From a virus, in the IMG/VR virus record IMGVR_UViG_3300027969_000347, positions 1 to 28,361 of that record: a DNA stretch of 28,361 nt, one strand, 5' to 3'. Both the position numbers and the translations under genes were made by a program. The number at the start of each line of letters is the position of its first letter. Position 1 is the first letter of the stretch. The notes under the pieces are model-generated. The model had not been told where the DNA came from and ran no database searches. It was given only the letters and a program-made list of their open reading frames with translations. Below are positions 8,744-19,474 of the stretch, in pieces.

Positions 8744-10993
8744 ATGGCTGAAAAAAAACCATCAACAAAAGATATTTATCTTCTGTCTCAGCGTCCTGAT
8801 CTTGCATCTAAATTTGATGAGGTGTATGGTGATGGATCAGCAGCGCAGGTACTTAGCAGAGTAAAGCCACAAGCATTGCAAAAACAATTATCTGAACCGC
8901 AAGGAAGTTATACAGGCGCTGCTCTTCGTGGACTAACTGGCCCTTTACTTGGCGCAGCCGTTGGTGCTCCATTTGGACCTATTGGTATGCTTGCTGGTGG
9001 GTTGGCTTTGCCAGCGGCTGACGCATTGACGGCATTGATGAATACGGCTACTGCTGGTGCTGAAAAAGTTACTGGTGGTTCGTATGGGCGCATGACATCA
9101 CCATCAGAAGGTATACAAAATTTGCTAACCCAATTTGGAGTACCGCAGGCCGAGACAACGGGACAGCGTGCATTGCAAACTGGACTTGGAGCACTTGGCG
9201 GCACTGCATCTCAATTGGGTGGATTACAGAAATTGGCTACTACTGCCACCACGCCTTTGGCAAGAGCAATTAGCGGACAAATGGCGCAACGCCCAGTTGC
9301 ACAAATGGTTGCCGCAGTACCTGCTGGTGCTGCTGGTCAGACTGCTGCTGAAGCTACCCAAAACTTAGGTCCTGTTGCATCGACTCTTGCGTCAATGGCA
9401 GCATCTACTGCTGTTGGTGGAATAGGGATGCCACAAAGAGGAAAACCTGTCCAAACAAATGCAGAAATGCGCGCTGCTGATATAGCGGCAAAAGCAAAGC
9501 AACTTGGATTTACTGGTGAAACTGCTTTGACTCCAGGACAAGCTGGAACAAGCAGAACAGCACAAATCTTTGAGGCTACTGCTGGAACCATACCTTTTTC
9601 TGCTGGGCAATTTACTAGACGCTATGGGATGCAGTCGGACTATGCCCAAGGAATAATCAATAAGGTCGCTGACCTGTTTGGTGGTATGCCGTCACAACCT
9701 GATGTTGCTTTTTCTTCTGGCGCTAGTGCGGTGAAGTCAGCGGCTGCGCGCAATGTTGATAGCGTTGGAAGCCAGATACGCCAGGTAGCGTCACAGACTG
9801 ACATTGACTTAAAGCAAGTGCCGAAATTTGAGGAATCAATTCTTAACGCGCGAAAACTTCTCTCCTCAATACCGCCTGCTTTAAGAAAAGACCCATTGTT
9901 TGAAAGTTTTGAGCAATTCTATTTTGGTAAGCCAAATGACGAATTGAAGTCAATGGTAGACACTGCATTGCAAACTGCTGGAGTCAATCCTACAAATGCA
10001 AATTACACAATGATGAAGGACAATTTTAGGAAGCAACTTGTAGACAGTGGAGTACCTGAATTTGAGTATTTGGGTTACCAGCAAAAAGGTTCAATTGCAG
10101 GTAATGACTATCAGGATCAACGTAGTTTATTCAGCGATTTAGCATATAAAAATAAAGGTACAAAAGTTGGTGAGGCTTTTAGAGCATTACGCAATTCACT
10201 CGATGATGCACGAGATGAGACGTTTAAACAGGCTGGGATGGATGACCAAGTTGTGAAACTTAAAGAATTGCGCGGCTCTTATGGAGAGGCAAAAGACTTG
10301 AACGACAAGATTAGATCAGCTAGTGACAAGACTGCTGTTAGTTATGTGATGAACAATCAGGACAGTTTTGCAAATAAAGTTTTACCATTGATGAATGATG
10401 TTGAAAAGCAGTCTATGGCTCAAGCAGTATTAGCTGACATCCAGCAAACATCTATGTTTCCAACTGGAGAGATGGACATCACAAAGTTTGGCAAAAATCT
10501 TATTAAGGATGTCAAAGCATCACCGACGACATTACCGCAAATTCTTGGTGCTGAAAATACCGCAACTTTGACAGACTTGGCACAGGTTGCTCAGTCAGCC
10601 TTAAAAGCAAAAGTGCCATCGTCTGGAACGTCAGAACGAACCGGAATGATGGGGATGCTAACGTCAATGCCAGCCAAAGTTGGTGCGGCTATGGCAGGTG
10701 GTACTGCTCTAACCGGTGAGCCAATTCTTGGGACTGCATTGGCGTTAGGCACGCCAGCACTTGCAACAAAAGCCTACTTGTCTCCAACAATGCAAAGAAT
10801 GTATGGGAATACAGCAGAGCCATTGTTTAACTATCTTGGTGCTCCAGTTGATCCAATGGCGCAATATTTATCAAGTCTAGGTTTGGTGAATACGCAATTG
10901 AATCAACCAGGCTCATACGTTGTCAAACCTACTGATGATGAAGAGCGTAAAAGGCTTGAAGCACTTCAATCAGGGCTGCTATACGCACCATAA
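8744..10993 (+). CDS. Large internal virion protein, 749 aa
   Basis: Starts two bases after the previous stop. Residues about 57-100 form a Gly/Ala-rich hydrophobic block (LRGLTGPLLGAAVGAPFGPIG..LAGGLALPAADAL), a second such region lies at about 155-225 and a third near the C-terminus (MPAKVGAAMAGGTALTGEPI). Between them are helical, Lys/Asp-rich stretches (about 300-600). It is the largest of the four ejection-type proteins and in gene order corresponds to the long core protein (position of P22 gp16 or T7 gp15/16), though I see no transglycosylase motif. The hydrophobic blocks would suit insertion into the host membrane. The gene ends the rightward module, and its last 28 bases overlap the 3' end of the leftward gene at 10966-11346. 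Confidence 0.65.
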   Translation: MAEKKPSTKDIYLLSQRPDLASKFDEVYGDGSAAQVLSRVKPQALQKQLSEPQGSYTGAALRGLTGPLLGAAVGAPFGPIGMLAGGLALPAADALTALMNTATAGAEKVTGGSYGRMTSPSEGIQNLLTQFGVPQAETTGQRALQTGLGALGGTASQLGGLQKLATTATTPLARAISGQMAQRPVAQMVAAVPAGAAGQTAAEATQNLGPVASTLASMAASTAVGGIGMPQRGKPVQTNAEMRAADIAAKAKQLGFTGETALTPGQAGTSRTAQIFEATAGTIPFSAGQFTRRYGMQSDYAQGIINKVADLFGGMPSQPDVAFSSGASAVKSAAARNVDSVGSQIRQVASQTDIDLKQVPKFEESILNARKLLSSIPPALRKDPLFESFEQFYFGKPNDELKSMVDTALQTAGVNPTNANYTMMKDNFRKQLVDSGVPEFEYLGYQQKGSIAGNDYQDQRSLFSDLAYKNKGTKVGEAFRALRNSLDDARDETFKQAGMDDQVVKLKELRGSYGEAKDLNDKIRSASDKTAVSYVMNNQDSFANKVLPLMNDVEKQSMAQAVLADIQQTSMFPTGEMDITKFGKNLIKDVKASPTTLPQILGAENTATLTDLAQVAQSALKAKVPSSGTSERTGMMGMLTSMPAKVGAAMAGGTALTGEPILGTALALGTPALATKAYLSPTMQRMYGNTAEPLFNYLGAPVDPMAQYLSSLGLVNTQLNQPGSYVVKPTDDEERKRLEALQSGLLYAP

Positions 10994-11346
10994 AACGCCG
11001 CAATCATTGGATCGCGCCGAGGCTTAATGCTCTTGGCGCGGTCCCTGGCCTGGCGAAACTCTTTGTCCTCCTGAGTCTCTTTAGCGCGCATCTTGCGCAC
11101 ACGCTCTGCGCCTGTTGCCCGTGGAGGCTTGGGCGCATCGACCCCGATGCCTGCGCGAAACAGGGCGGCAATGCCGTCCGGCTGCCTGCGCCACCCTGAC
11201 CTGTACACGAGTCCCCGTCTGCGCATACTGGCCAGCAGCTCCTGCGCACTGCGCTGGGTGCAGTGGACCAGGACGCATATCTCTGAGGTGGACATATCTT
11301 TGCGCCTCAAGATGTCCAGTATGCGCGGCTCTCTGACGGACTTCAT
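10966..11346 (-). CDS. Helix-turn-helix (winged-helix-like) DNA-binding protein, 126 aa
   Basis: Residues 1-55 match the common phage HTH layout: a first helix (EPRILDILRRKD), then MSTSEICVLVHCTQRSAQEL as helix-turn-helix, and LASMRRRGLVYRSGWRR as the wing region. The remainder is basic (APKPPRATGAERVRKMRAKE). I know similar small regulators with a 'GW..R ... DAPKPPR.T.AERVR' pattern in Burkholderiales phages. It is the last gene of the leftward operon, and its ATG overlaps the previous stop (ATGA). It could be a late-switch regulator or nucleoid-like protein. Its 3' end overlaps the rightward internal virion gene by 28 bases, so the two transcripts would be antisense to each other there. Confidence 0.65.
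   Translation of the reverse strand: MKSVREPRILDILRRKDMSTSEICVLVHCTQRSAQELLASMRRRGLVYRSGWRRQPDGIAALFRAGIGVDAPKPPRATGAERVRKMRAKETQEDKEFRQARDRAKSIKPRRDPMIAAFYGAYSSPD
11009..11044. terminator. Strong hairpin at convergent gene ends, possible bidirectional terminator without T-tract
   Basis: Arms 11009-11021 and 11032-11044 pair over 13 positions, with two G-T wobbles, around a 10-base loop. It starts 16 bases after the stop of the internal virion gene and lies within the 3' coding part of the leftward helix-turn-helix gene. There is no T-run on either side, so it is not a textbook intrinsic terminator; it may stall or protect the 3' end of the late transcript. Confidence 0.4.
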
Positions 11347-11582
11347 ACGCCACGGCTCCTGATCTGAAGATGGTCATTGGCGCCAGGTCTAGGTGTATCC
11401 ATCTTTGGAGGCTGGTACACTGGTTGGCGCCAGATTGAGATTGCTGGTGGCGGCGCCTCGCCTGCAAGTTTCTCTCTTGCTGACCACTCACCAGCAAGCC
11501 CGAGCACGCGGCGCTTAGAGTCACCGCCAATTGCAAAACGTCCGATAGATGATGCGCGTTTACTTTGATAGCCTGTCATCAT
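11343..11582 (-). CDS. Small basic protein of unknown function, 79 aa
   Basis: Start ATG at 11582 overlaps the stop of the gene upstream (reading AATGATGA on the minus strand); a TTG at 11591 would be a longer alternative. It begins MMTGYQSKRASSIGRFAIGG and continues with Arg/Lys-rich and later Pro-rich sequence (PPPAISIWRQPVYQPPKM). No recognisable domain, membrane segment or cysteines. It is supported mainly by its place in a chain of overlapping genes and by the 4-base overlap with the HTH gene downstream. It could be a structural or nucleic-acid-binding protein. In the opposite strands other open frames exist but do not couple with any neighbour. Confidence 0.5.
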   Translation of the reverse strand: MMTGYQSKRASSIGRFAIGGDSKRRVLGLAGEWSAREKLAGEAPPPAISIWRQPVYQPPKMDTPRPGANDHLQIRSRGV

Positions 11583-11797
11583 TTTCCCCAAAAAATAAAA
11601 GCTAGTAGCGTTATTGATGCGGTAACAGCTATAACCAAAATGAGTGCTTTAAAAGTGTCTGTAATGTCGTCATACGGGTCAGCAACCCTGCCCCAGCCGC
11701 CGCTGATGTACGCATCATCGGTTTCCTTGGCGCGTTGTTTCCTCACAGGGCAGTCACGCCCTTGTGTGCATTCACCGTTTGCATTGCAACAATTCAT
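11579..11797 (-). CDS. Small Cys-rich membrane protein, 72 aa
   Basis: The N-terminus has four cysteines (Cys3, Cys4, Cys10, Cys16: MNCCNANGECTQGRDCPVRK), then a hydrophilic stretch and one membrane segment at about 51-70 (ALILVIAVTASITLLAFIFW) ending GK. The cysteine spacing could bind a metal or form disulfides. With an Arg/Lys-rich part after the cysteines, the N-terminus probably stays in the cytoplasm. I recognise the layout from small proteins in beta-proteobacterial phages, all without function. It overlaps by four bases with genes on both sides (11794-11797 and 11579-11582), which supports translation as part of the operon. Confidence 0.6.
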   Translation of the reverse strand: MNCCNANGECTQGRDCPVRKQRAKETDDAYISGGWGRVADPYDDITDTFKALILVIAVTASITLLAFIFWGK

Positions 11798-11985
11798 GTC
11801 AACTCTCCTAGTCTTATGGTTAGGCGCTTGATGCGCGTTTGGTTAAACGAAATTATGCTCTGCGCGTACTCGGCGCCAGATTCAGCCTCAAGCAACTGTA
11901 TCGCTGCCTCGGCCAGCTCACGCTGGATCATTTCCCTTGGCGTCAAGTCGCGCCAGTAGTCCTTCAAAAATCTAAAAAAGCTCAT
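11794..11985 (-). CDS. Small helical protein, 63 aa, unknown function
   Basis: MSFFRFLKDYWRDLTPREMI... then a Glu/Ala-rich helix (ELAEAAIQLLEAESGAEYAQ) and a basic helix (QTRIKRLTIRL). It is predicted all-alpha with no membrane segment or cysteines. Similar tiny proteins with 'DYW.DLTP.E.I.RELAEA' occur in phages of Burkholderiales; function unknown. The ATG at 11985 overlaps the stop of the 156-residue gene upstream and its own stop overlaps the next ATG. A helical adapter or host-factor-binding protein would be consistent with the size, but nothing in the sequence proves it. Confidence 0.6.
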   Translation of the reverse strand: MSFFRFLKDYWRDLTPREMIQRELAEAAIQLLEAESGAEYAQSIISFNQTRIKRLTIRLGELT

Positions 11986-12452
11986 TCTGTTTTCTCCAAA
12001 ATTACCCGCGCTCTGCGGTTCTTGATTTCTGACTTCACAATATCTATCGCCTTCTCCATCTGCTCGATGTTGGTTACTTCAATCTGCGCATCATGTATCT
12101 CCATGCCAAGGTTGATAGAAACCAATTCCTGCGCCTTGAGCACGAACCGATACTCTCGGTCTATCCCGCGCCTGGAGACGGCATAAAGCGCGTCCTGGGC
12201 CTCTCTAAGCTCATCCCTGTACTCATCACCGATGCCAAGACGCTGCAATGCCTCGGCAATGTTCAGCGCCTCAATGATGCAGTCAATATCCTCTCTGTCA
12301 GCGATACCTTTTCTCAGGGCGTCGATGGCATTGTGGTTCTTGATCTGGACGTTGACAATGCCAGCCTGCGATATCGGCTTGAACCCATTAATGATCCACG
12401 CCACCGGATTAGCTAGCTGCGGCTTTGGCCTGTACGAGCTGCGCTTTCTCAC
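11982..12452 (-). CDS. Conserved phage protein, 156 aa, unknown function
   Basis: Starts MRKRSSYRPKPQLANPVAWI, with a basic N-terminus; the rest is mostly helical and charged: QIKNHNAIDALRKGIADREDI, EALNIAEALQRLGIG, LYAVSRRGIDREYRFVLKAQEL, and a final INLGMEIHDAQIEVTNIEQM helix. I know homologues in beta-proteobacterial phages with the same start (RKRS.YRP...NP) and the 'IHDAQ' motif. No function is established there. It is the longest protein of the leftward operon and overlaps its neighbours by four bases at both ends. Confidence 0.7.
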   Translation of the reverse strand: MRKRSSYRPKPQLANPVAWIINGFKPISQAGIVNVQIKNHNAIDALRKGIADREDIDCIIEALNIAEALQRLGIGDEYRDELREAQDALYAVSRRGIDREYRFVLKAQELVSINLGMEIHDAQIEVTNIEQMEKAIDIVKSEIKNRRARVILEKTE

Positions 12453-12694
12453 CGTTTGAGCTCCATGATCTCAAGCTCCAATTGCTTGCAGTGCTGGGAC
12501 AGGTTGTCGTAGTCCTGCTTGTACCTGGCGCTAGTCAGTTTCTCGGCGCCAGCCCACCCGATGAGCGTACCTTTGGTGGCCGCCGTGCGTAGATGGGCGC
12601 GCAGCTCATGCGCTGTCAGGATGCCGATTTGCCCTGGTTGCGGGGACAGCTCATCCACGACGGCGTCGATCTCTTTTTGCATTGACTCGGACAT
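12449..12694 (-). CDS. Small helical protein, 81 aa, unknown function
   Basis: MSESMQKEIDAVVDELSPQPGQIGILTAHELRAHLRTAATKG..., ending in a coiled-coil-like helix (NLSQHCKQLELEIMELKR). The ATG at 12694 follows the TGA of the 37-residue membrane protein by one base, and the stop overlaps the 156-residue gene start. The GTLIGWAGAEKL segment at its centre is the only non-helical part. It has no membrane segment. A small DNA- or protein-binding adapter is possible; I cannot name a family. Confidence 0.55.
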   Translation of the reverse strand: MSESMQKEIDAVVDELSPQPGQIGILTAHELRAHLRTAATKGTLIGWAGAEKLTSARYKQDYDNLSQHCKQLELEIMELKR

Positions 12695-12695
12695 A

Positions 12696-12809
12696 TCAGA
12701 CTCCCATGAAGAAGAAAAAGGCTAGGCCGACTCCGATGGCCAGGGCCAGGGCAATGTCTGCCCACTTACGGGTGACGGGTTGGATGGTGTAGTGCTCGCG
12801 GTAGCGCAT
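12696..12809 (-). CDS. 37-aa single-pass membrane protein
   Basis: ATG at 12809 has GGAG about 5-6 bases upstream (minus strand), and the frame ends at the TGA 12698-12696, one base before the next ATG. The protein is MRYREHYTIQPVTRKW followed by a hydrophobic helix (IALALAIGVGLAFFFFMGV) that runs to the C-terminus. It is a short basic N-terminus plus one membrane helix. Small inner-membrane peptides of this kind occur in phage early operons and in toxin or superinfection-exclusion systems, but here the role is unknown. It is preceded by the hairpin at 12827-12840. Confidence 0.55.
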   Translation of the reverse strand: MRYREHYTIQPVTRKWADIALALAIGVGLAFFFFMGV

Positions 12810-12826
12810 GGTGGACTCCTAAAGAT

Positions 12827-12840
12827 GGGGCCGTAGCCCC
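12827..12840 (-). promoter_or_regulatory. UNCG-type RNA hairpin in leader of 37-aa membrane protein
   Basis: On the minus-strand transcript the sequence reads GGGGC-UACG-GCCCC: a perfect 5-bp G/C stem closed by a C-UACG-G tetraloop, a member of the very stable UNCG class. It lies between the stop of the 79-residue gene (12851) and the start at 12809, about 8 bases before the ribosome-binding site. No U-run follows, so an RNA-stability or partial-termination role is likelier than full termination. Confidence 0.55.
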
Positions 12841-12850
12841 GTTTGGTTGG

Positions 12851-13090
12851 TTAAAGTGCAACTACTTGAGACCAAGGTGCGCGGAAAGCGGCAGGATTAT
12901 CCTCAACTTGAGGTGTTGCAACTCCGCGATAAAAATACGCGGCTACTTCAACAGCAAGATCAAAACGTGCGCGATCAGTACGACCAAATGCGCGAACTTC
13001 TTCAACTGACTTCCCAAAAACAGGAACGCAATTTGTTGCGCCCATCAATCCGATTGCGGGATAAACGATTGCTGTTGTAACTTTTGCCAT
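12851..13090 (-). CDS. First gene of leftward operon, 79 aa, unknown function
   Basis: A GGAG element lies 6 bases before ATG 13090 on the minus strand, the clearest ribosome-binding site in the operon. The protein reads MAKVTTAIVYPAIGLMGATN, then CVPVFGKSVEEVRAFGRTDR and ARFDLAVEVAAYFYRGVATP, ending FRAPWSQVVAL. It is a mixed alpha/beta small protein with no membrane helix except a weakly hydrophobic start. As the promoter-proximal gene it should be the most strongly expressed. No family recognised. The overlapping plus-strand frame (12847-13080) is an antisense shadow. Confidence 0.6.
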   Translation of the reverse strand: MAKVTTAIVYPAIGLMGATNCVPVFGKSVEEVRAFGRTDRARFDLAVEVAAYFYRGVATPQVEDNPAAFRAPWSQVVAL

Positions 13091-13198: not shown

Positions 13199-13270
13199 AA
13201 ATATTTGTCTATCTAGTCAAAAAACACGCCTAGAATTGCGCCATTCGTCAATTTGGAGGTTACAGGCACA

Positions 13271-13480
13271 ATGATTACGTCAACAGAGCAAGCAATCGAG
13301 GCAATACGCCAGAGGGCAAAGGATGCAGGGTTCAAGATGAACGATATCGCGTACGCGGCTGGCGTGGACCCCGCCCAGCTATCGCGCTGGAGCACTGGCA
13401 AGACTGTCCCGCTATACAGCAACATTATGAAGCTGGAGCAGGCCGTGGACGCGCTGATAGCGGCAAAGGCGCCCCAATGA
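13271..13480 (+). CDS. Cro/CI-type HTH repressor, 69 aa
   Basis: ATG 13271 lies 11 bases after GGAGG (13255-13259). Residues 1-69 form a complete XRE-type domain: EAIRQRAKDAGFKMNDIAYAAG, then VDPAQLSRWSTGKTVPLY as recognition helix, then SNIMKLEQAVDALI. The length and the absence of any oligomerisation or protease-like domain match Cro, not CI. It is the first gene of the rightward operon and faces the leftward operon, so it likely binds the operator-like repeats between them. No CI or integrase gene is visible in this window; it may control early timing in a lytic phage. The stop overlaps the next ATG by four bases. Confidence 0.8.
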   Translation: MITSTEQAIEAIRQRAKDAGFKMNDIAYAAGVDPAQLSRWSTGKTVPLYSNIMKLEQAVDALIAAKAPQ

Positions 13481-15897: not shown

Positions 15898-17904
15898 ATG
15901 GACACAGAAACAATAGCCAAGGCGCTGGGTAACGCCAAGCAGGTCAACGGGCAGTGGGTGTGCTCATGCCCCGTACCTGGCCACGGCAGAGGGAACGGAG
16001 ACAAGAACCCATCACTCTCGATCACCGAGTCAGACGGCAAGGTCCTGTTCCACTGCCACGGCGGGTGCGACCAGAGGGACGTGTTTGACGCTGTCAGAGC
16101 TAGGGACTTGCTACCCACCACACCAAAGCGGGAGGAGATTAGCTTTACCCAGCACCAGGCGCCGGTCTTAGAAAAGGAATGGCTGTACCGCACAGAGGAC
16201 GGCGATACCCTGTTCACTAAGCGCCGGTACAAGACTCAGGACGCTAAGGGCAAGACGTACTCCATACACCGCGTGGACGCCTCGGGAAAGCGCATAGCCG
16301 GACTTAAGGACACGCGCATCGTCCCGTACAACCTACCGGAACTATTGGACGCTAAGACAGCAGGCCGAGCCATCTACCTGGTGGAGGGTGAGAAGGCCGC
16401 GGACGCATTGGTCAGCATTGGCGCCATTGCCACAACGTCACACACTGGCGCAGGAAGTTGGCCAGCGGAGATAACGCAATACTTTGCCGGAGCCAACATA
16501 GTGGTGATACCGGACAACGACGAGCCAGGAAGGCAGTACGCCAGGCGTGCAATACAGAACCTGTTACCCGTGGCCAAGTCAATCCGCTACTTGGACCTGG
16601 ACCTGATGGTGGAGGGGGATGACGCCTACGAGTGGGTGCATCACGCCAAAGGCACGCGCAAGGAACTCGCGGACATGGCCAAGCAGGCGCCTGTTATCAC
16701 GCAAGAGATGCCTGTAACAGATGGCGAACAATCATCGGAAACAACGCAAACAGATCAGGAGGCGTACAACCCGACACCGCAACTGCTGAACATCGAGGCC
16801 TGGGACACGATCAAGGACGAGCCGGTCAGGTGGATCATTGAGAACGTGCTGCCGGAGAAGGGTTTTGCAGCCCTGTACGGGCCACCAGGCTCATACAAGT
16901 CATTTATCGCGCTTGACATAGCCGAGGCGGTGGCCACAGGCAGGCAGTGGATGGGTAACCAGGTAACAAACCCTGGCGCCGTCCTGTACATAGCCGGAGA
17001 GGGTCACGGCGGTATCGGGGCAAGGATCAAGGCCTGCAAGATCAACCACCAGACGCAGGACGGGGCAGAGATATACGTCATACGCTACCAATTGAACCTG
17101 AGATCGAGCGCGGATGACTTCAACCTGCTGATGGAGTCAATAGACAACCTGATCGAGCGCACAGGCATAGAGCTGAGCTTGGTGCAGATAGATACCCTAG
17201 CCAGAGCCTTCGGCGGTGGCAACGAGAACGACAGCCAGGACATGGGCGCATTTATCCATAACGCTGGCAGGCTGCAGCGCAAATTGGACTGCGCCTTGAT
17301 GGTTTTGCATCACTCTGGCAAGGACCAGACCAAAGGATTACGCGGTCACAGCTCACTATTAGGCGCCGTGGATACGCAGTTGGAGCTGCTGAAACTTGAG
17401 CAAACCGAGCGCAAGGATGGTGTCGCAGGACAAGGAATCATCACCATCAGCAAGCAAAAGGATGGCCAGGACAACCTTAAATTCGGCTTTGAGATGGTCA
17501 ATATCGACATTAATCAGGGTGCTGACAAGGGACTCGGGCTGGACGAAAACGTCTCATTAGCGGTCAAAGAGAACCAGGAAATGATCGACGAGCAGTACAA
17601 GACGCCACCAAAACCACCATCCAGGTCTGGTGCTGGAGGCGTCCAAAAGGTGGCTCTGGATGCACTTCATAAGGCAATTGGTGAGCACGGAGAGATGCGG
17701 GTAATTGACAACAAACGCAATAAATCTATTCATGTGGAACAGTGGCGCGAGGCGTTTGAAGCAGCACAAACAGACAAAAAAGGAATCACAAAGCGCTTTA
17801 ACAGGTGCGTGCAGAGCCTTCAGAACGCCAAAAAGGTAGAGGTTTTCGATCCATTTGTGTGGGTGATTTGGGGCGATGATGGTCAAAAAGATAGCGATTT
17901 CTAG
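15898..17904 (+). CDS. Primase-helicase (CHC2 zinc finger + TOPRIM + RepA/AAA helicase)
   Basis: 668 residues in three parts. (1) A zinc-binding region (about 20-57) with Cys22, Cys24, His29 and the FHCHGGC cluster (Cys53, Cys57), resembling DNA primase zinc fingers. (2) A TOPRIM domain: YLVEGEKAAD with Glu164, and VVIPDNDEPG with Asp206 and Asp208. (3) A RecA/AAA helicase of the RepA type: Walker A GPPGSYKS (328-335), Walker B LVQIDTLAR with Asp432, and a HHSGKD motif (471-476). The linker (about 250-300) is Gln/Thr-rich. It would synthesise primers and unwind at the fork, as T7 gp4. No DNA polymerase gene is in the window. The gene is followed immediately by an iteron-like array. Confidence 0.9.
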   Translation: MDTETIAKALGNAKQVNGQWVCSCPVPGHGRGNGDKNPSLSITESDGKVLFHCHGGCDQRDVFDAVRARDLLPTTPKREEISFTQHQAPVLEKEWLYRTEDGDTLFTKRRYKTQDAKGKTYSIHRVDASGKRIAGLKDTRIVPYNLPELLDAKTAGRAIYLVEGEKAADALVSIGAIATTSHTGAGSWPAEITQYFAGANIVVIPDNDEPGRQYARRAIQNLLPVAKSIRYLDLDLMVEGDDAYEWVHHAKGTRKELADMAKQAPVITQEMPVTDGEQSSETTQTDQEAYNPTPQLLNIEAWDTIKDEPVRWIIENVLPEKGFAALYGPPGSYKSFIALDIAEAVATGRQWMGNQVTNPGAVLYIAGEGHGGIGARIKACKINHQTQDGAEIYVIRYQLNLRSSADDFNLLMESIDNLIERTGIELSLVQIDTLARAFGGGNENDSQDMGAFIHNAGRLQRKLDCALMVLHHSGKDQTKGLRGHSSLLGAVDTQLELLKLEQTERKDGVAGQGIITISKQKDGQDNLKFGFEMVNIDINQGADKGLGLDENVSLAVKENQEMIDEQYKTPPKPPSRSGAGGVQKVALDALHKAIGEHGEMRVIDNKRNKSIHVEQWREAFEAAQTDKKGITKRFNRCVQSLQNAKKVEVFDPFVWVIWGDDGQKDSDF

Positions 17905-17921
17905 GTCTTTTAAAGGTGCTT

Positions 17922-17959
17922 GGACAAATGGGACAAATGGGACAAATGGGGGACAAATG
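17922..17959 (+). repeat. Iteron-like array, GGACAAATG x4
   Basis: Exact copies of GGACAAATG start at 17922, 17931, 17940 and 17951 (spacings 9, 9, 11 bases). A fifth copy is at 18010-18018 and one exact inverted copy at 18044-18052; an 8/9 inverted copy is at 17978-17986. A weaker relative, CCATTTGTG, is within the end of the primase gene (17851-17859). The array sits 18 bases after the primase-helicase stop and in a 214-base gap without a supported gene. Confidence 0.9.
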
Positions 17960-17984
17960 GGAGTACACACCAAATTCCATTTGT
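17953..17984. other. Potential hairpin linking iteron 4 to the inverted copy
   Basis: ACAAATGG (17953-17960) pairs perfectly with CCATTTGT (17977-17984) over 8 bases with a 16-base loop. It could form a second, smaller stem within the array. Confidence 0.5.
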
Positions 17985-18007
17985 ACCGGCATAAATTGGC
18001 TGGAAAA

Positions 18008-18054
18008 CGGGACAAATGGGCGCGTAAGTCTTAATACGCGCCCCATTTGTCCCG
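18008..18054. other. Large near-perfect inverted repeat (19-bp stem), candidate origin or regulatory hairpin
   Basis: Left arm 18008-18026 and right arm 18035-18054 pair over 19 positions with one bulged C (18041) and an 8-base loop. The arms contain iteron 5 and its exact inverted copy. Structures of this kind mark replication origins, primase start sites or terminators; there is no T-run, so simple termination is not favoured. Confidence 0.8.
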
Positions 18055-18075
18055 ATCAGTCAATGCCCAAACTTT

Positions 18076-18105
18076 TGCCCAAGTGGGCAGTTTCTAGTTT
18101 TTCTT
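18076..18105 (+). terminator. Weak terminator-like hairpin before the 215-residue gene
   Basis: TGCCC (18076-18080) pairs with GGGCA (18085-18089) around AAGT, followed by an interrupted T-rich stretch (18090-18105). It is a short stem with an imperfect T-tract, so termination efficiency is probably low. Confidence 0.35.
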
Positions 18106-18118
18106 GATGGAGCGATAA

Positions 18119-18766
18119 GTGGCAATAAAAAAACTTAAATCTTTGGCGATTAGTCAGCCGACCATGCCGAGCTTTCCAGCGGATCGTTTTGACGTGTTCA
18201 AAAACGCGGTCATGGTTGAACTGACAAACCGAAAGAATACCCATGATGCAATATGGGGTATTGATAGGCTGGTCTGGATGGTGGACAGCGAGCTGCGGGA
18301 AAAGGTGTGGCTGCAACTTGAACGGGTCTGGCAGGCACAGGAATCTAGGGACGACGTAAAGCTGGACAAGGCGGTCAAGGGGATGTGCAAGGCGTACCAG
18401 GCTATGGAGGACTGGGCTGCGGCTAATGGGGTCAGCGAGCTGCCGGACCTGGGACAGATCGAGCACCAGCGCGAGGATGGTACGGTTTTCGTGATCGTGC
18501 CAGACGAGAAGGCCAAGCAGCTCTACTGCCAGCAGTGGACAGGCTATACGGACAGGGAAGTCTGGACGGCAGCGGAAATTGCGATAATCGTCAACAAGCA
18601 GGCAGGTGGCAAGGTCAGCGAGATTAAGCAGTTATGGCCAGACAGTAAGCTGGTGGCGGTTGGTGGGCCAAGCGGGTTTGATGACATGGAGAACGATTTG
18701 GACATGACAAAGCCGAGCACGCTGCCTAAACTGTTCGACACAAAGGCGTTTAAAGGGGCTAGATGA
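18119..18766 (+). CDS. Unknown protein downstream of the iteron array, 215 aa
   Basis: GTG start at 18119, preceded by GGAG at 18109-18112. The first 25 residues are basic (MAIKKLKSLAISQPTMPS), then helical sequence (VFKNAVMVELTNRKNTHDAIW, WLQLERVWQAQESRDDVKLDK, KGMCKAYQAMEDWAAANG). The middle (about 120-135) has EHQREDGTVFVIVPDEKAK, and the end is Lys/Asp-rich (FDDMENDLDMTKPSTLPKL). No named domain. Its place between the iteron array and the terminase genes suggests a phage regulator, iteron-binding replication protein or packaging factor; helix-rich sequence with a basic start would allow DNA binding, but no HTH is certain. Its TGA overlaps the next micro-ORF. Confidence 0.6.
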   Translation: MAIKKLKSLAISQPTMPSFPADRFDVFKNAVMVELTNRKNTHDAIWGIDRLVWMVDSELREKVWLQLERVWQAQESRDDVKLDKAVKGMCKAYQAMEDWAAANGVSELPDLGQIEHQREDGTVFVIVPDEKAKQLYCQQWTGYTDREVWTAAEIAIIVNKQAGGKVSEIKQLWPDSKLVAVGGPSGFDDMENDLDMTKPSTLPKLFDTKAFKGAR

Positions 18767-18843
18767 TGCGTAGAAGCGATTTTGTTGGGTTGGGCATGGG
18801 TAAGGTGCTTTGGGTGGCTAAATTCGATTTAAAGGCTTTCTGA
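18763..18843 (+). CDS. 26-aa coupling micro-ORF before small terminase
   Basis: ATG 18763 overlaps the previous stop (ATGA), and its own TGA (18841-18843) overlaps the small terminase ATG at 18843. It encodes MMRRSDFVGLGMGKVLWVAK plus six residues. The perfect couplings on both sides suggest that ribosomes pass through it; the peptide itself may be irrelevant. It is too short for homology arguments. Confidence 0.4.
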   Translation: MMRRSDFVGLGMGKVLWVAKFDLKAF

Positions 18844-19282: not shown

Positions 19283-19474
19283 ATGTCTCAAGCATCTCTA
19301 CTGCATACGACGGGCATTATGTTAAGTTGTTCAGCCTGTGACTATCCTGTGGATAACCTAGCCATGTACGCTGGGTACTGGCCCGTCCGCCTGGCTCCGG
19401 TGGCCGCGACCCCCCCATTCGCTCCAGCAGCGGGGGCGGCAACTGCTGCACCTAAACACATACCGAGCCCATGA
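19283..19474 (+). CDS. Possible 63-aa ORF between terminase genes (uncertain)
   Basis: The frame starts MSQASLLHTTGIMLSCSACDY and becomes Pro/Ala-rich (LAPVAATPPFAPAAGAATAAPK). It ends in a TGA overlapping the large terminase ATG (ATGA), which supports coupling. Against it: no clear ribosome-binding site, a poly-C run and low-complexity sequence, and the DnaA boxes lie in it. The 190-base stretch may instead be a packaging or control region. Confidence 0.3.
   Translation: MSQASLLHTTGIMLSCSACDYPVDNLAMYAGYWPVRLAPVAATPPFAPAAGAATAAPKHIPSP
19348..19356 (-). promoter_or_regulatory. Perfect DnaA box, copy 2
   Basis: TGTGGATAA at 19348-19356, the same orientation as copy 1 and 76 bases away (centre to centre). 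It is within the same 12-base word, CTGTGGATAACC (19347-19358). Confidence 0.6.

Follow-up and report, generated by a model that had tools for sequence, protein, structure and literature searches.

A 28,361-base IMG/VR virus contig (IMGVR_UViG_3300027969_000347, analysed over its full length and referred to below as the window) carries a 214-base gap between the stop codon of its primase-helicase gene (17904) and the start of a 215-aa ORF (18119). The gap holds an array of identical short repeats (iterons), followed by a hairpin. What is this array for, and which protein reads it? The features on which the analysis is based are listed below.

15898-17904, + strand: primase-helicase gene (668 aa), with a weak TOPRIM region (residues ~159-228), an AAA_25 RepA-like helicase (302-477) and a predicted C-terminal winged helix
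17635-17901, + strand: predicted winged-helix domain at the C-terminus (residues ~580-668), the putative reader of the iterons (word covariation, AF2, weak PDB matches)
17785-17826, + strand: predicted recognition helix (residues ~630-643; AF2 and covariation)
17922-17930, + strand: iteron 1, GGACAAATG (repeat search)
17931-17939, + strand: iteron 2, GGACAAATG (repeat search)
17940-17948, + strand: iteron 3, GGACAAATG (repeat search)
17951-17959, + strand: iteron 4, GGACAAATG, able to pair with 17978-17986 (repeat search)
17978-17986, - strand: inverted iteron, 8/9 match (GTACAAATG); close relatives also carry an inverted copy here
18010-18018, + strand: iteron 5, left arm of the hairpin (repeat search)
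18044-18052, - strand: exact inverted iteron, right arm of the hairpin (repeat search)
18008-18054, no strand: hairpin of 19 pairs with a bulged C and an 8-base loop (compensatory changes)
18119-18766, + strand: 215-aa ORF with a GTG start, a neighbour without annotated function, proposed non-reader (no word covariation, helical fold)

The preliminary description had reported the positions and spacing of the repeats and the geometry of the hairpin (19 pairs, bulged C, 8-base loop), and each of these details was confirmed. Exact + strand copies of GGACAAATG start at 17922, 17931, 17940, 17951 and 18010, the first four lying within 38 bases with spacings of 9, 9 and 11; the exact inverted copy reads CATTTGTCC and the 8/9 inverted copy CATTTGTAC. 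In the hairpin, the outer arms are iterons and the inner stem is formed by GGCGCGTA/TACGCGCC; its folding energy is -33.4 kcal/mol (RNA parameters). None of 5000 dinucleotide-preserving shuffles of the gap reached five copies of one 9-mer (the best contained four), nowhere else in the window do three copies of any 9-mer fall within 60 bases, and only one further exact copy of GGACAAATG is present in the window, at 9275. Since the gap is identical in three other contigs (L003-L005), the array is not an assembly accident. The earlier statement that the gap contains no gene also held: the 9, 9, 11 spacing breaks the reading frame and the repeated sequence (hereafter the word) varies between relatives, so no plausible gene runs across the array in any frame. 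Blastn of the gap against named phages gave no match.

Pfam analysis revealed AAA_25 as the only helicase family in the window primase-helicase (E=5e-41); neither DUF927 nor a D5/Primase_Cterm helicase was found in this protein. The structure of RSF1010 RepA (1g8y) matches residues 307-477 (E=0.0018). The Toprim match was below threshold (E=0.027-0.14), while Toprim_3 was detected at 1.6e-13 in a relative, L146. Farther upstream lie a RuvC-like gene, a DUF2800 exonuclease gene and the gene of a 194-aa protein, located where phage CRP-831 has an annotated ssDNA-binding protein. Downstream, the order is the 215-aa ORF, an Sf6-like small terminase (TerS, at 18843), the large terminase (TerL, at 19471) and an SU10-type portal. 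A block of small minus-strand ORFs with reversed GC skew (10966-13090), divergent from the replication genes, is possibly an early/regulatory region.

Relatives were gathered by scanning viral contigs with both flanking proteins, which yielded 52 distinct gap versions (a single genome scan gave distant helicase matches only); these contigs are metagenomic, and assembly may affect their array copy numbers. The layout recurs between the same two genes in these 52 relatives, and the shared design comprises (i) direct repeats 3' of the primase stop, (ii) usually an inverted half-site and (iii) a hairpin with the word as its outer arms. At least three NNNNNNAATGG words are present in 42 of the 52 relatives; the remaining 10, all distant, contain other repeated words, as judged by eye. 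The word itself changes. At 73-92% primase identity we observed GGACAAATGG, GGTACAAATGG, GGGCAAATGG, TGCCAAATGG, CGACAAATGG, GGAAAAATGG, AACGGAATGG and AACGAAATGG, and in more distant relatives CCTACAAATGG, TAAACAAATGG, TCAACGAATGG, GTTACAAA, CACCACAAACA and others.

The word copies inside one genome switch together. When L008 is compared with the window from 17977 to the 215-aa ORF, the words are 60% identical (mostly through the constant AATGG half) and the spacers 84%; in L020, whose words are nearly identical to those of the window, the values are 97% for words and 81% for spacers. The search for conserved repeats in close relatives that had been proposed as a check came out on the side of a function, although what is kept is the layout and not the word. 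All close relatives retain the 215-aa ORF along with the array. The terminases of about half of the close relatives (L023, L027, L035, L052, L089 and others) are unrelated, or only ~30% identical, to those of the window; the junction of this replacement is close to where the 215-aa ORF stops (its final residues differ too) and is a recombination hot spot.

The hairpin is evidently kept by compensatory changes. In the window's hairpin type (type 1), 98.8% of cells pair and 8 of the 19 pairs change on both sides; two of these compensated pairs belong to the inner stem and are not part of the words. The corresponding figures for type 2 are 99.3% and five pairs. Sliding controls collapse, and the bulge occupies a fixed place in each type. 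Such a strongly covarying stem might be expected of a hairpin that works as RNA, i.e. a terminator, an attenuator or a structured regulatory RNA, and a match to the Rfam trpB motif was found at 17950-18053. This match is insignificant, however (it scores 24 bits where 59 are required, and many positions are left unpaired), and no family reached its Rfam gathering score in the window and five loci searched. Moreover, the hairpin is not followed by a T-run, the terminator scan flags different stems, and a role as RNA leaves unexplained both the joint word change in repeats outside the hairpin and the tracking of the word by a protein domain (see below). We therefore consider this explanation very unlikely.

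In several loci from other phages (L142, L145, L146, L148, L144) the hairpin apex is often a short palindrome, CCC-TWWA-GGG, which is found across unrelated words (e.g. CCCTTTAGGG, CCCCTATATAGGGG and ACCTTATAGGT) and may itself be recognised.

In order to identify the protein that follows the word, word distance was compared with protein distance over 22 close relatives. Residues 585-668 of the primase-helicase gave a Spearman correlation of 0.88 with word distance (partial Mantel p=0.0005). Residues 1-580 taken together gave ~0; along the protein, the correlation is ~0 over residues 1-570, reaches 0.88 at residues 601-630 and is high through to the end. The values for other proteins in the same 22 relatives were -0.05 (215-aa ORF), 0.11 (TerS), -0.08 (TerL), 0.07 (the 194-aa protein, SSB) and ~0 (RuvC). 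Modest raw correlations were obtained for HTH75, a Cro-like HTH protein encoded at 13253-13480 (0.38), and for the exonuclease (0.32), both of which became non-significant after controlling for the C-terminal domain (HTH75: 0.18, p=0.17); under the same control the 194-aa protein gave a weak 0.19 (p=0.04). The domain keeps 0.86-0.92 whichever neighbouring gene is controlled, and none of the eight neighbours tested is a separate protein that covaries with the word. When the words were sorted into four coarse classes, the tree of the C-terminal domain required 3 changes (the minimum), compared with 7 for the remainder of the primase and 9 for the 215-aa ORF.

Because it changes in step with the word, the C-terminal domain of the primase-helicase is the most likely reader of the repeats, as far as covariation can indicate. 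Counting against this assignment, the diverged words GGTACAA and TGCCAA occur with nearly the same domain as GGACAA. The preliminary description had instead proposed the 215-aa protein, encoded immediately downstream, as the binder; its adjacency to the array and their joint conservation speak for this. The comparison did not support the proposal: besides the lack of overall covariation and the 9 word changes on its tree, no 30-aa stretch of the protein correlates with the word above 0.23. The protein is predicted to be mainly helical (three long helices and a small mixed domain), the structure search gave no DNA-binding or HTH-like fold match, and no Pfam or PHROG match was found. Binding of the array by the 215-aa protein is thus highly improbable.

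For the C-terminal domain, AlphaFold2 (26 aligned sequences) places the elements helix-strand-helix-helix-strand-strand in residues 580-656, with a pLDDT of ~75 at best; in this medium-confidence model, the predicted order of helices and strands is that of a winged helix. Matches of the domain in the PDB are weak (E of 0.14 or above), and many of them are winged-helix domains; TM-scores of 0.57-0.66 (target-normalised) were obtained with the CUL1 WHB, linker histone H1 and MORF. The positions most strongly associated with the word (620-638 and 647-653) are found where the second helix ends, within the third helix, which is the recognition helix, and in the wing.

Only 20 bases separate the end of the C-terminal domain from the first iteron, which raises the possibility of linkage: recombination could move the 3' end of the gene together with the gap, and domain and word would then match without any functional pairing. 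The domain tree is indeed mosaic relative to the rest of the gene, and synonymous distance within the domain correlates weakly with the word (0.38). However, this correlation falls to 0.04 given the amino acids, whereas that of the amino acids given synonymous distance is 0.86. For the spacers that lie between the words, the correlation with the domain is only 0.17 (0.03 given the word), and the domain retains 0.88 with the word given spacer distance. In addition, the start of the 215-aa ORF, 65 bases past the hairpin, does not track the word, and in the CRP-831 family (see below) the same recognition helix and word recur in relatives of only ~55% identity. Since synonymous distance and spacers add nothing and the 215-aa ORF varies independently of the word at its start, functional pairing is the better explanation of the match between domain and word. 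Part of the covariation signal could reflect linkage, the domain and the array being adjacent, but linkage as the whole explanation is improbable. The pairs may arise by co-evolution or through swaps of matched cassettes; that swaps do happen can be seen from the domain tree.

The same layout, with its own words, is found in named phages that carry distant AAA_25 helicase-primases, namely Roseobacter phage CRP-831 (TGTATAAA), Alteromonas phage PB15 (TGGTTCA) and Rhizobium phage RHph_N65 (GGCGGAGAT, 9 of whose 10 genomic copies lie inside the gap), and also in Burkholderia BcepGomr and Vibrio 1.076.O. A significant repeated 7-mer is present 3' of the gene in 58 of 64 distinct members of the CRP-831 family, 20 of 23 of the PB15 family and 23 of 69 of the RHph_N65 family. 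Counting against the proposed role, an evident array is absent from the phages L140, L141 and L147, which have RepA-like proteins. In families A and C, which are more diverged, the Mantel test was not clearly replicated (0.19, p=0.03 for A; 0.06, p=0.10 for C); nearly all words differ there, power is low, and the support is qualitative. Within the CRP-831 family, CRP-831 itself combines the word GTATAAA with NPRSSYANAVKA as recognition-helix sequence. L255, at 83% identity to CRP-831, nevertheless carries the word CTACAAA and the recognition-helix sequence NPDSAYSGAVKS, as in CTACAAA phages of ~55% identity. When word-sharing pairs of this family (17 only) were compared with other pairs, the contrast was highest at the recognition helix.

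In RHph_N65 an AEP-type primase replaces TOPRIM, which indicates that the set of helicase, winged helix and array is not tied to one kind of primase. A RepA-like helicase fused to an AEP/PriCT_2 primase, not TOPRIM, was also found in L148 (1430-3553), with an array and hairpin of the same kind 3' of it. A separate ATPase family (L123:10151, L130:3222, L132:10573, L139:8833 and L131:1793), for which no curated Pfam family scored above threshold, carries GGGACAAATGGGACAAATGGGACA in both orientations, flanking a spacer, immediately 3' of the ATPase gene and 5' of terminase genes; nearly the same word has apparently come into use here independently. Some exact pattern matches are not evidence, as they are due to coding repeats: those in L117, L120, L125, L134 and L135 are a coding coincidence (seven in-frame GGACAAATG copies in an ORF encoding a GQM peptide repeat), and those in L122 and L129 lie in a collagen-like gene.

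These comparisons also bear on two other functions that the location of the array might suggest. As the array lies upstream of the 215-aa ORF, it could be an operator through which the primase-helicase, or a phage regulator, controls downstream genes (the 215-aa ORF and the terminases). Initiators often autoregulate, and the raw correlation of the Cro-like HTH protein with the word points in the same direction, but this correlation loses significance when the C-terminal domain is controlled, as described above. Furthermore, a promoter scan of 17700-18400 found no sigma-70-like promoter, the downstream gene varies between phage families, and the array of RHph_N65 is located between convergent genes and is thus upstream of neither. 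An operator is, on balance, unlikely.

The array could also be a packaging site (pac/cosB-like) for the small terminase encoded 800 bases downstream. Both terminase genes follow closely, and the array of the unrelated L123/L130 family is likewise placed just before terminase genes. However, L023 and L035 keep the word although their terminases are unrelated or 30%-identical, the terminase is 6-8.5 kb away in RHph_N65 and PB15, and TerS does not follow the word in the close relatives; a packaging site is extremely unlikely.

We conclude, with a probability of roughly 0.7, that the array and hairpin are a replication origin, or at least an assembly site of the replication machinery, read by the predicted C-terminal winged helix of the upstream primase-helicase. 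The origin reading, which stems from comparison of sequences, is supported by the conservation of the layout, the covariation of the hairpin and the recurrence of the layout in unrelated phages with the same type of helicase. The initial suggestion of an origin or initiator-binding site is supported in these respects, but not by GC skew, which had been put forward as a check: both in the window and in three complete phages, the skew extremes lie away from the array.

A possible course of events can be outlined. Several copies of the protein would bind the direct repeats through their C-terminal domains, and this binding would concentrate and load the hexameric RepA-like helicase. By virtue of the inverted iterons, the hairpin might be extruded in single-stranded form, which could serve as an entry point for the helicase and as a template for the fused primase. 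Because the reader adjoins its site, the two would be inherited or exchanged as a matched pair, and phages could in this way change their specificity.

A broader proposal, which we regard as tentative, is that a large class of phages relying on RepA-like helicase-primases has a changeable origin address, with word and reader diversifying rapidly as a pair and defining mutually incompatible replication groups. This diversification is perhaps driven by competition among co-infecting phages, satellites and origin-targeting nucleases. If the proposal is true, the recognition rule could be deduced directly from the sequences of the many natural pairs.

To our knowledge, the origins of most environmental phages are unmapped. 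The layout (a word array and hairpin 3' of a RepA-like primase-helicase gene) would offer a sequence rule for locating them, and would at the same time name the likely reader. Origin specificity would, moreover, be highly evolvable within an otherwise unchanging replication machine. The words and domains form a natural series of pairs for working out how winged helices read DNA, and this series allows one to ask whether phages exclude rivals or parasites through origin identity, as shown for the PLE satellites.

The open-licence literature contained no description of such an origin type for AAA_25 phages, although several known systems share parts of the design. In SaPI Rep and SCC Cch2, the C-terminal domain recognises iterons that lie immediately 3' of the protein's own gene, and the isolated C-terminal domain of Cch2 binds its repeats (PMC7581432; for SaPI, as cited there from Ubeda 2007). 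The window system resembles them in the iterons directly 3' of the helicase gene, in C-terminal specificity (here suggested by sequence comparison) and in the presence of a primase in the module or in the same chain (SaPI5 Rep). The SaPI and SCC proteins differ in being DUF927 or D5/Primase_Cterm helicases located on chromosomal islands, whereas the window is from a free phage whose RepA-like helicase is of the AAA_25 type, with a TOPRIM-like primase, and has a conserved, covarying hairpin in addition.

In the alpha protein of P4, primase and helicase share a single chain with a winged helix at the C-terminus, and the protein binds origin repeats (as summarised in PMC4234260, citing Yeo 2002 and Ziegelin and Lanka 1995). 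The same three parts occur in one chain here, the winged helix being predicted. The helicase class is different, and the P4 origin has a second repeat site, crr, whereas one cluster is present in the 28.4-kb contig, which is possibly a fragment. In plasmid pRN1, a stem-loop origin lies directly downstream of the primase-helicase gene, whose product (ORF904) has a winged helix at its end; this protein showed no detectable specific binding to the stem-loop (PMC4234260). A conserved stem-loop 3' of the primase-helicase gene is thus common to both, but pRN1 has no iterons and combines an AEP primase with an SF3 helicase, in contrast to the AAA_25 helicase and iterons found here.

In PLE satellites, the DNA-binding domain of RepA co-varies with the origin iterons, modular swaps occur and only cognate pairs replicate, the origin being targeted by the ICP1 nuclease Odn (PMC8263062). 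PLE RepA is a separate satellite initiator of the RepA_N type with two specificity groups, whereas the proposed reader is fused and more than ten words are observed. A RepA-type hexameric helicase is likewise used with iterons (oriV) in the IncQ plasmid RSF1010. There, however, iteron binding (RepC), helicase (RepA) and primase (RepB') are the tasks of three separate proteins, as opposed to the one fused chain proposed here. Judged by its sequence, then, the window system would work like those of SaPI/SCC, P4, pRN1 and PLE, but with another helicase class, a covarying hairpin and many more specificities.
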